Positions 2,429 to 9,816 of a stretch of DNA of 10,425 nt are shown piece after piece. Position 1 is the first letter of the stretch; each line of letters opens with the position of its first letter. The position numbers and the translations under genes were made by a program. The notes under the pieces were generated by a model. It did no database searches and was not told where the DNA came from. It saw only the letters and a program-made list of their open reading frames with translations. The DNA comes from a bacterium. GTDB taxonomy: Bacteria; CSSED10-310; JAJRTK01. The stretch is taken from contig JAJRTK010000166.1 in NCBI GenBank assembly GCA_024278345.1, positions 1 to 10,425 of the forward strand. The letters are read 5' to 3'.

Positions 2429-2436
2429 GTTTTGAG
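2429..2436 (+). repeat. 8 bp target site duplication, left copy (GTTTTGAG)
   Basis: Identical to 2693-2700 on the other side of the element. Collapsing the two copies restores codons GGT TTT GAG CGA in the rpn frame, which confirms it as the insertion scar. Confidence 0.9.
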
Positions 2437-2459
2437 GGCCATCCACGTAAGGCGGGACA
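2437..2459 (+). repeat. Left terminal inverted repeat of element copy 1
   Basis: Twenty-three bases beginning GGCCATCCACGTAAGG and ending GGGACA. It pairs with 2670-2692 with a single mismatch. Confidence 0.88.
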
Positions 2460-2541
2460 GAACACAAAAAAAAGGAAAACGCGGGGCCGAGCGAAGCGAG
2501 ACGCCGAGCATAAGCGAGGCCCACCGTACAAAAATGTGGGT

Positions 2542-2609
2542 CCAGGGAGCTGGCTCCCTGGTAGGTGCAGGGCGACGCCCTGCCAGGGGACCGGGGACGG
2601 AGTCCCCGG
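2542..2609 (+). other. Three consecutive hairpins inside element copy 1
   Basis: Perfect stems in series: 2542-2561 (CCAGGGAG/CTCCCTGG), 2567-2583 (GCAGGGC/GCCCTGC, loop GAC) and 2591-2609 (CCGGGGAC/GTCCCCGG, loop GGA), separated by 5 and 7 bases. Stems two and three have recognisable but altered counterparts in copy 2. Such an array could be an RNA fold, a terminator-like block or a recognition structure; the sequence does not decide. Confidence 0.65.
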
Positions 2610-2669
2610 ACGACCGCCGAGCAGCGCGAGGCGCCGCCCGGACGATTGGTATTTCCACAATCCATGAAG

Positions 2670-2692
2670 TGTCCCGCTTTACGTGGATGGCC
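2670..2692 (-). repeat. Right terminal inverted repeat of element copy 1
   Basis: Reverse complement of the left end except for one base (AAAG here against AAGG at the left). Confidence 0.88.
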
Positions 2693-2700
2693 GTTTTGAG
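2693..2700 (+). repeat. 8 bp target site duplication, right copy (GTTTTGAG)
   Basis: Exact copy of 2429-2436, directly abutting the right inverted repeat. Confidence 0.9.
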
Positions 2701-3138
2701 CGAGTGGAAAAGTGGAAGTACGTGAGCCATTGGGTGTTGGACTTGGAGATCGTGTTACTTGTGTTGAAGGAGATGAAGGGGGAAAGGCGTGGAGAGGCGT
2801 TGGCTTGGCTCCAGGTGTTGGAAGAGGAATGCTGGGAAGATGTGGCGAGCCAGCAGTTGGAGGATGCCGAATCCCTGGAAAGGGTGATGGCCAGTCTGAA
2901 CCGGGAGAGAACGATGATTTTGGCAGAGAAATACAAAGAAGCAGGAAAGCTGGAAGGTCGGCGGCAAATGCTATTGGAACTGCTGGAGACAAAATTTGGG
3001 GGGGTGTCTCCGGAGTGGAAGGACCGAGTGGAAAACGGGGATAGCCGGAGTGTGAGGCTTTGGGCGCGGCGGGTGTTGGAGGCCCGGCGGCTTGAGGATC
3101 TGTTTCGGCCGGAAGCCTCCCCGACGTCCGGGAACTAG

Positions 3139-3560
3139 GCTGTGTCTGACAAAGATCGTCAATTCTGGTATAGAATTGCGTGGTTTTTGAGAAAGCGACG
3201 GTGGGTTGATTATAGGAGAGATGGTCGATGGGACGGCATGAGCTGACCGACGAGCAGTTTACCCGAATTGAGCCGATGCTTCCAGTCAACACTGGGCGAG
3301 GCCGCCGATTTGAGGACCATCGCCGGGCCATTAACGGAGTGCTTTTCAGGCTTCGAACTGGAATCCCCTGGCGAGACCTGCCCGGCCGCTATGGTCCATG
3401 GCAGAGTGTGTTCGACCGATTCAATCGCTGGAGAAGAGATGGTACCTGGCTCAGGATACTGGGACATCTTCAGACCGAACTCGATGAAGCTGGTCAGCTG
3501 GATTGGTCGTTGTTCAGCATAATACTGCCTTCGTGAACTCCCTAATTTGTCAGACACAGC
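3139..3560 (+). mobile_element. Internally deleted IS5-family (IS427-like) element with intact ends
   Basis: Perfect inverted repeats of 15 bp (GCTGTGTCTGACAAA at 3139-3153 and its complement at 3546-3560) are bounded on both sides by CTAG, which fits the YTAR target duplication of IS5-type elements. The element is 422 bp, about half the usual 800-900 bp of the group. It keeps the left end, promoter region and first ~100 codons of the transposase, then jumps to the right end. Because both ends are intact it could still be moved by a transposase supplied from elsewhere. It inserted exactly at the stop codon of the rpn gene. Confidence 0.88.
3228..3536 (+). pseudogene. Truncated IS5-family transposase, N-terminal fragment
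   Basis: The 102-residue frame MGRHELTDEQFTRIEPMLP...WRDLPGRYGPWQSVFDRFNRWRRDGTWLRIL...LDWSLF is the typical N-terminal DUF4096 region of IS427-group transposases. The DDE catalytic domain should follow LDWSLF, but the frame ends with SIILPS and a stop at the deletion joint. The ATG follows AGGAGAG at seven bases. The dyad CAATTC...GAATTG just upstream probably covers the element's own promoter. The fragment has no catalytic residues and cannot transpose by itself. Confidence 0.9.
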
Positions 3561-4497: not shown

Positions 4498-4512
4498 TCC
4501 AAGCGCCTCACC

Positions 4513-4704
4513 AGCCCGATCCTCTCTTGCCCGTCCCGGCACGAACGCCCTCAAACGCCATCCTGCTCCACAAGCCAGCCCGATCCTCTCTTGCCCGTCC
4601 CGGCACGAACGCCCTCAAACGTCATCCTACTCCACAAGCCAGCCCGATCCTCTCTTGCCCGTCCCGGCACGAACGCCCTGAAACGCCATCCTACTCCACA
4701 AGCC
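4513..4704. repeat. Three head-to-tail 64 bp repeats
   Basis: Units at 4513-4576, 4577-4640 and 4641-4704 are nearly identical, differing only at positions such as CGCC/CGTC, CTGC/CTAC and CTCA/CTGA. The array lies immediately upstream of the preferred start of the TVP38-type gene, so it would sit in that gene's leader or promoter. There are no spacers between units, which excludes CRISPR. Such arrays vary in copy number by slippage or recombination, so strain variation is expected. Confidence 0.93.
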
Positions 4705-8366: not shown

Positions 8367-8648
8367 GGGTATCAACGTAAGCCGGGACACCCGCCAAAAC
8401 AAAGACGCAACGCGTCGTACATGAATGTGGGCTGGGATCTCGTTGCCCTTTGTTGCAACGGGAAGTTGAGCGAGCTCCCTGGTGGGTCCAGGGCAAAGCC
8501 CTGCCGGGGACCGGTGCCGGAGGCCCCGGATGACCGCCGAGTAACGCGAGGCGTGACCCTTCGAGTCACGCAAACGTGACCCGCCGAGCGAGGCGTTGGC
8601 GCTTGCAATGCCACAATCCTCGAATTGTCCCGCGTTGCGTGGATGCCC
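8367..8648. mobile_element. 282 bp MITE-like element, copy 2 (decayed)
   Basis: Ends at 8367-8389 and 8626-8648 form 23 bp inverted repeats matching at 18 positions, against 22 for copy 1, and share the GGG...ATC...ACG...CGGGACA pattern. The flanks CCGAATCC (8359-8366) and ACGAATCC (8649-8656) agree at 7 of 8 bases, the expected scar of an 8 bp duplication. The interior aligns with copy 1 at AATGTGGG, GCTCCCTGGT, CAGGGC...GCCCTG, CCGCCGAG...GCGAGGC and CCACAATCC, in the same orientation. No coding capacity is seen. It lies just past the 3' end of the second rpn gene. More mismatches suggest an older insertion than copy 1. Confidence 0.85.
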
Positions 8649-8740: not shown

Positions 8741-8763
8741 GAAGCCTGTCTGCAACGGGCTTC
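8741..8763 (-). terminator. Hairpin at the 3' end of the second rpn gene
   Basis: On the minus strand GAAGCC pairs with GGCTTC, and GT with AC after one mismatch, around a TGCAG loop. It starts at the last base of the stop codon. No T-run follows, so it may slow RNA decay rather than terminate transcription. Confidence 0.35.
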
Positions 8764-9752
8764 TAGCCTGTTTCAGTGACGCGAGCTTTGATCTGGTCCG
8801 GAGTTGCGGTGGCGAAGATGGGGAGCCATTGCTGGAGAAGCTGAAGGTCGCCGGTGTATTGGAGAGCCTCGGTGAGCCAGGAGGGAGCCCTTCCAAACCG
8901 GGCTTCATAAGTGGCTTGCAGGGCGGAGCGCAAGGCGTCGCGCTCTCCCTCTTGTCGGCCCTCTTGTCGGCCCTCTTGTCGGCCCTCTTGTCGGCCCTCG
9001 TGTCGGCCCTCTTCGCGGCCTTTTTCGATGCCTTCGAGGTAGGAGCCCTCGGTGAGAGTGTTGTGGAGCTGCATCCAGCGGATGCGAGCTTCGTATTGCT
9101 GGCGTGTAGGGTGGTCTCCGCCGAGGCGTTCGAGTTCCTGCATGGCCTGGAGGATCTCAGGTGTTTTCCACTTTTCAAGGACGGTCTTGGGCATGTTGGG
9201 GGCCTCCTTCAAAAAAGAGATCCATTGTTCGCGTAGAGAGGATGCTTCGTGGGGGGCACGGGTGTAGCTCGGGAGCTGGAAGAGAAGGATCGTGATGTGG
9301 CGCGAGAAAGTGAGCTGTGAACGGATTCCGCGGAATTCGAAGCGTTCGTGGTAGCCGTCGAGATCCTTGAACAGTTCAAAGTTGGAAAAGATCAGCAGGA
9401 GGAGTGGATTCAGGAGGTGGTAGCCTTGGCCTTTTTTGAGCTGTTCGCCGAATCTCTTTGCGGCGTAGTAGAGCATGCGTTCCGTGAATGCGCGGTGGTT
9501 GAGGCATTGCATTTCGACGATGAAGTGTCGTCCGCGTTTGTCCTGTACGGAGAGATCGAGGATGGATTCCTTTTCGTCGGAGGTCTGAAGCTCGGAGAGC
9601 GTGCTGAGGATGGTGATGGAATCGATGGCGTCTTTGCCGTGGAGTTCCAGGACGCCGTTGAGAAGGCTTCGGAGGAGAGCTGAGTTTTTTTGTCTTCCGA
9701 AGAGAGCGCGAAAGACGACATCGATTTTGGGGTCGAGGATGGTTGGTTTCAT
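8763..9752 (-). CDS. Rpn-family recombination-promoting nuclease / putative transposase (PD-(D/E)XK), intact
   Basis: The 329-residue protein opens with the Rpn/TIGR01784-type N-terminus MKPTILDPKIDVVFRALFG. It has a PD-(D/E)XK-like core, D66 in ILDLSVQD and E80-M-Q82 in FIVEMQ (Rpn proteins often have EMQ where classical nucleases have ExK). It goes on with AFTERMLYYAAKRFGEQLKKGQGY and PLLLLIFSNF, then a charged linker of EGRQEG repeats (about 245-268) and a small helical C-terminal domain, YEARFGRAPSWLTEAL. Members act as DNases that promote recombination, but host targets are unclear. GTG 9755 directly precedes ATG 9752; I use the ATG. A strong sigma70 promoter lies 65-95 bp upstream. It is only distantly related to the split rpn gene at 2044-3138: same fold, little visible sequence identity. 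Confidence 0.92.
   Translation of the reverse strand: MKPTILDPKIDVVFRALFGRQKNSALLRSLLNGVLELHGKDAIDSITILSTLSELQTSDEKESILDLSVQDKRGRHFIVEMQCLNHRAFTERMLYYAAKRFGEQLKKGQGYHLLNPLLLLIFSNFELFKDLDGYHERFEFRGIRSQLTFSRHITILLFQLPSYTRAPHEASSLREQWISFLKEAPNMPKTVLEKWKTPEILQAMQELERLGGDHPTRQQYEARIRWMQLHNTLTEGSYLEGIEKGREEGRHEGRQEGRQEGRQEGRQEGERDALRSALQATYEARFGRAPSWLTEALQYTGDLQLLQQWLPIFATATPDQIKARVTETG
8947..9018 (-). repeat. 12 bp tandem repeat encoding the EGRQ hinge
   Basis: Four perfect units of CCCTCTTGTCGG (plus-strand reading, 8947-8994) are followed by two imperfect ones. Each unit encodes four residues, giving EGRQEGRQ on the minus strand. Because the unit is a multiple of three, gain or loss of copies keeps the frame and only changes linker length. 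Confidence 0.92.
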
Positions 9753-9816
9753 CACGAGTTGGTCGGCTTCTTTTTGTAAAGGTGAGAATGGAGCGTTGGC
9801 AGCCTATGCACGATCG

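Follow-up and report, generated by a model that had tools for sequence, protein, structure and literature searches.

Here we describe a MITE that inserted into a coding gene and duplicated 8 bp of its target. A transposase of DUF6399, a Pfam family (PF19936) for which no function is listed, very probably mobilised it in trans. The element lies in the window, by which we mean the whole 10,425-bp stretch of DNA analysed here, one contig (C87) of a MAG of 6.06 Mb in 550 contigs and 87.9% complete. The DNA itself shows its ends, its target duplications, how many copies there are and that, in several genomes, DUF6399 genes are physically linked to such ends. A MITE as such is a known kind of element, and single members of this family may already stand in ISfinder without the Pfam name; the novelty lies in the connection with DUF6399. 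That connection gives a Pfam family of unlisted function a probable one, as a transposase, together with the DNA sites it is expected to recognise, which makes the proposal directly testable with the complete natural DUF6399 elements now on hand.

The element spans 256 bp (2437-2692, + strand) and is delimited by 23-bp inverted ends that match at 22 of 23 positions, with GGCCATCCACGTAAGGCGGGACA on the left (2437-2459, + strand) and GGCCATCCACGTAAAGCGGGACA, as read on the - strand, on the right (2670-2692). Direct-repeat comparison places an exact GTTTTGAG on either side, at 2429-2436 and 2693-2700. Deleting 264 bp, that is, the element and one GTTTTGAG, leaves a single open frame of 276 codons from the GTG at 2044, or of 327 codons if counted from the in-frame ATG at 1891. 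Because 264 is divisible by three, the insertion causes no frameshift; the gene is instead ended by an in-frame stop codon inside the element (2665-2667), which closes the frame given as 1891-2667 in the open reading frame listing. The 256 bp contain no transposase gene, the longest frames there being host frames that enter it or short overlaps, and an Rfam search of the window gave no match. With its terminal inverted repeats, 8-bp target-site duplication, short length, lack of genes and multiple copies, the element is a MITE. An earlier note on this DNA had described a small non-autonomous transposable element with borders exact to the base, and that description stands in full. Its further wording, that excision restores the frame, is borne out insofar as removal rebuilds the pre-insertion gene; excision itself was not observed, and a search for an empty site among homologues from plasmids and 30 other genomes gave none that spans the insertion point.

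The same element recurs throughout the host genome. A search with the 256 bp finds 54 matching places including the element itself, thus 53 further ones, and other copies bear the same ends and 8-bp duplications of their own; the closest is 96% identical over 250 bp and is flanked by its own duplication, CTAAGGCG. Ends of this type, which we call type A, occupy 453 sites genome-wide at two or fewer mismatches (222+231), against 0+0 for the reversed pattern. In the part of the genome that was read, 38 distinct end pairs lie less than 700 bp apart, and exact duplications flank them at 8 bp in 13 cases (the window element and 12 more copies), at 9 bp in one and at 4 bp in one; no exact duplication of another length between 4 and 13 bp was found among these pairs. 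Near-matching flanks fall in register 0 (14) or +1 (5) only. The flanks match at 8-9 bp in 14-15 of the 38 pairs and are without a match in 23, the latter likely through nesting or decay.

Contig edges hold many of the type-A end sites, and the family thereby contributes to the breakage of this assembly; within one genome, end sites in the hundreds can now be assigned to a single family, which explains much of the broken assembly. Hundreds of copies are not without precedent, 711 copies of ERIC having been counted in Photorhabdus (PMC10969869). Like the bacterial MITEs Correia, Chunjie and ERIC, the window element is short and gene-free, with inverted ends, target duplications and up to hundreds of copies (PMC10969869); unlike them, the present family has other ends, a named candidate partner enzyme, and two end-distinct MITE families with a common internal hairpin. 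Roughly 1.05 Mb of host sequence was searched for a full-length partner, and no end pair of 0.7-6 kb there had matching flanks.

Outside the host, the matches listed from an exact-pattern scan of species genomes include contigs from Desulfococcaceae HSG8, from two Anaerolineales MAGs and from a Methylococcaceae MAG; the GGCTAYCCAC form of the ends was absent from 386 genomes, mostly of other phyla. The Methylococcaceae MAG has MITEs of its own (147-250 bp), with an exact 8-bp duplication in 6 of 18 end pairs. One 125-bp MITE with type-A ends, flanked on either side by CAAGATCA, is present in a viral contig, the only such find among the viral contigs scanned for ends, and a 69-bp MITE-like query had no match among plasmids.

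It is the sequence just inside such ends that leads to DUF6399. Homologous protein tails, FGEKFPDLFEWIVERMEDLPLPR and FGGQFPDLFDWLLNQMGALPLPR, lie there in HSG8 and in one Anaerolineales MAG, and FGEKFPDLFEWIVERMEDLPLPR used as a query retrieves fragments in the host genome as well as plasmid genes annotated as DUF6399. One of the latter, on plasmid pCRI9333.07 of Crinalium epipsammum (WP_015180084.1, 524 aa, 2.8e-66 to DUF6399), resides in a complete element of 2505 bp, in which an intact DUF6399 gene lies between two identical 23-bp ends (GGCTACCAATCTAAGGCGGGACA) with CGTTTTCT on both sides. This element and that of the window have in common the type of their 23-bp ends and an 8-bp target duplication; the difference is that the Crinalium element has a gene. 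An ORF of 149 aa lies divergently beside its DUF6399 gene (locus L205, 1971-2420) and has no significant Pfam match. In an internally deleted relative on a Methylomonas plasmid, a frame of 185 aa joins the N- and C-terminal parts.

The linkage holds for loci that were found by their protein and not by their ends. Among 13 DUF6399 loci that retain the C-terminus, 12 have a type-A or second-type (type-B, described below) end in the correct orientation 10-196 bp past it, against a background of 0.03 per 200 bp; since the end pattern had been relaxed to take in the Crinalium ends, the Crinalium locus is not independent in this count, its ends having been established separately. Since the same ends flank DUF6399 genes, DUF6399 is very probably the enzyme that moves the MITE, and a family that the earlier note had been unable to recognise is now tied to these proteins through shared ends. 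The note had also looked towards a full-length IS with the same ends: ends of the same type do bound DUF6399 elements elsewhere, but the host itself holds only DUF6399 fragments. One of these (contig C188) has a type-A end 38 bp downstream, and the C-terminal half of the Crinalium protein matches the host remnants; an intact gene was not found in the assembly, which is 87.9% complete and breaks at repeats. Two host composites of DUF6399 remnants and ends (contigs C390 and C393) were considered as elements and rejected, as their flanks do not match and they look nested. DUF6399 proteins occur in 3 of 386 genomes, among them the host and one genome of the same phylum, in none of 14 control genomes, and in no viral contigs or phages. 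Among the papers covered by a literature search, none mentions DUF6399 or the end sequences.

A second type of end belongs to a second group of DUF6399 genes. A de novo search for inverted ends plus a duplication around the DUF6399 gene of Thiodictyon (WP_100918590.1) yielded a complete element of 1916 bp, whose ends, GGCCTTGATCATCGTTCCGGCCAC and a variant of it, differ from type A and are flanked on both sides by GTCCAACC. These type-B ends define a second MITE family in the host, with 90 sites in 1.05 Mb at six or fewer mismatches (6 for the reversed pattern) and with duplications that are 9 bp long in most cases. Where end and protein could both be read in unrelated genomes, type-B ends accompany Thiodictyon-like DUF6399 fragments, and type-A ends accompany Crinalium- or Acaryochloris-like ones. 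We propose a DUF6399 element family, in which full-length members have the DUF6399 gene between the ends and duplications are of 8-9 bp (CGTTTTCT and GTCCAACC in the two complete elements, mostly 9 bp for host type B). As an instance of clean nested insertion, an ISL3 transposase gene of the host (locus L051, contig C5, 1-840) is split by a type-B MITE that occupies 335-535 and has GTTCAAGCG as its 9-bp duplication.

Different as their ends are, the two host MITE families have an internal hairpin in common. Hairpin h1 (CCAGGGAGCTGGCTCCCTGG, 2542-2561 in the window), recognised from its fold and from occurrence sampling, was sampled 64 times; 58 of these occurrences lie no more than 350 bp from a type-A or type-B end, a zone that makes up 9.8% of bases. 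By the same sampling, hairpins h2 (GCAGGGCGACGCCCTGC, 2567-2583) and h3 (CCGGGGACGGAGTCCCCGG, 2591-2609) belong to type A only: 45 of 55 occurrences of h2 are near type-A ends and none near type-B ends alone, and 14 of 18 occurrences of h3 are near type-A ends. The recurrence of h1 in end-distinct families (at 2542-2561 here, and in type-B copies such as the one at L051 335-535) looks as if a cassette had moved between them. Two end types with a common internal hairpin offer an opening for studies of how MITEs come by their internal sequence.

From its residue pattern, DUF6399 is a predicted DDE-type transposase in which a long insertion precedes the glutamate. Three full-length members share D142-E-T-F, S-D198, D217-L-F-H and R-x-S-S-x-x-E451-G-R-N-G (Crinalium numbering), of which D142, D198 and E451, together with the DLFH at 217-220, underlie the prediction, and the members have HTH-like N-termini. 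ISL3, IS256 and hAT enzymes likewise have a long insertion before the glutamate and produce duplications of 8-9 bp, and the DUF6399 elements resemble ISL3, IS256 and the eukaryotic hAT elements in their duplications of 8 bp (8-9) and in a similar D...D...DxFH...E pattern; ISL3 ends, too, begin with GG, as type-A ends do. The end sequences of these families are otherwise different, and we claim membership in none of them. Against the ISL3 profile, DUF6399 aligned in the expected region at an E of 0.12, which is not significant, the Crinalium protein reached 0.079 against Pfam rve, and no solved structure was matched in a sequence search of the PDB; we thus infer the DDE (RNase H) fold from the conserved residues and the HTH-like N-terminus.

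Taken together, these data suggest how the window element may have moved. A DUF6399 transposase would recognise 23-bp ends of the form GG(N)(N)ATCCACGYAARGCGGGACA and cut the target with a stagger of 8 bp, sometimes 9, into which the element would be pasted, with movement by either a cut-and-paste or a copy-out route. The enzyme would come from full-length elements, whose gene is enclosed by ends of matching type, and gene-free MITEs would be served in trans, a mode that we infer from the host keeping only DUF6399 remnants. For the same reason, the MITE family may now be stranded, or its source may sit in the unassembled part of the genome; the intact DUF6399 gene may accordingly be lost or lie in what the assembly is missing. 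With more reserve, we favour the broader reading that DUF6399 is an undescribed transposase family that founds a new IS family, with at least two end-specificity groups and with members in Cyanobacteria, Gammaproteobacteria, an Anaerolineales, a Desulfococcaceae and the host's sparsely sampled phylum. Since one hairpin occurs in two host MITE lineages whose ends differ, this reading includes movement of the h1 payload between lineages served by two DUF6399 subtypes.

We also weighed whether the mobiliser could be a known IS family, with DUF6399 as a passenger gene. IS1595 and ISL3 are the natural candidates, as both families produce 8-bp duplications and the host genome contains transposase remnants of each. 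However, neither of two host copies of IS1595, nor one from an Anaerolineales, is bounded by the MITE ends, and the host ISL3 copy has a GGCTCTT-type end; both families were rejected as partners of the type-A MITE, their copies being present and these ends absent. Moreover, besides DUF6399 and the 149-aa ORF, the Crinalium element contains no other recognisable transposase gene, and the two end types are tracked by two DUF6399 subtypes, all of which makes the passenger reading improbable.

Still less credible is a structured, REP-like repeat spread by recombination or replication slippage instead of transposition. Strong hairpins do fill the 256-bp element, whose single-strand fold is very stable (z of -6.6 as DNA and -8.5 as RNA), partly because its ends pair, and the hairpin motifs recur across the genome; nevertheless, 23-bp ends exact to the base and exact duplications of uniform length across many unrelated sites speak against such spread, as do full-length elements in which ends of one type enclose a gene, and the target duplications already contradict it. 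That the inverted ends and the direct repeat arose by chance or in assembly is hardly conceivable, even though the metagenome assembly is fragmented and many of its contigs end in these repeats. The window has 4 end-like matches against 0.01 in shuffled windows; this near-zero value and that of the reversed pattern genome-wide exclude chance, and genomes assembled independently of this one, as well as finished plasmids, show the same structure, at odds with an artefact. Insertion of a MITE served by a DUF6399 transposase thus accounts best for the window.

The interrupted gene itself is less securely named than its interruption. Its 5' part (2044-2436, + strand; GTG start, with an upstream start possible at 1891) is weakly DUF4351/Rpn-like, and its 3' part (2701-3138, + strand; stop codon at 3136-3138) has 47% identity over 59 aa to a paralogue on contig C300, a Transposase_31/YhgA-like protein of the Rpn group that resembles the C-terminal part of the product. 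The rejoined protein of 276 aa had DUF4351 as its sole Pfam match, weak and below threshold (E = 0.043), and no match in NCBIfam. The gene therefore belongs probably, though not demonstrably, to the Rpn group, and the firmer label of an Rpn nuclease gene in the earlier note is not upheld. It is another gene of the window, at 8763-9755, that is clearly rpn (PDDEXK_2, 9e-41; TIGR01784, 1e-32). A second, diverged type-A copy of 282 bp (8367-8648) stops 114 bp downstream of the stop of this second rpn gene; with ends 78% complementary over 23 bp and flanks, CCGAATCC and ACGAATCC, alike at 7 of 8 positions, it is older than the element at 2437-2692.

Further repeats and traces of other transposases lie in the window and elsewhere in the genome. 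A fragment of an IS4/IS5-type transposase (3228-3536; DUF4096, 6e-29) begins 90 bp past the interrupted gene, and two IS1595-type copies on other host contigs (L152 on C322, L153 on C295) have in common a sequence starting GGCTCTATATGCGATCC, unrelated to the MITE ends. A 64-bp unit is repeated three times in tandem at 4511-4704, its copies 96% alike, and within the second rpn gene a 12-bp tandem repeat of 5.6 copies (8947-9013) gives rise to a repeated charged stretch.
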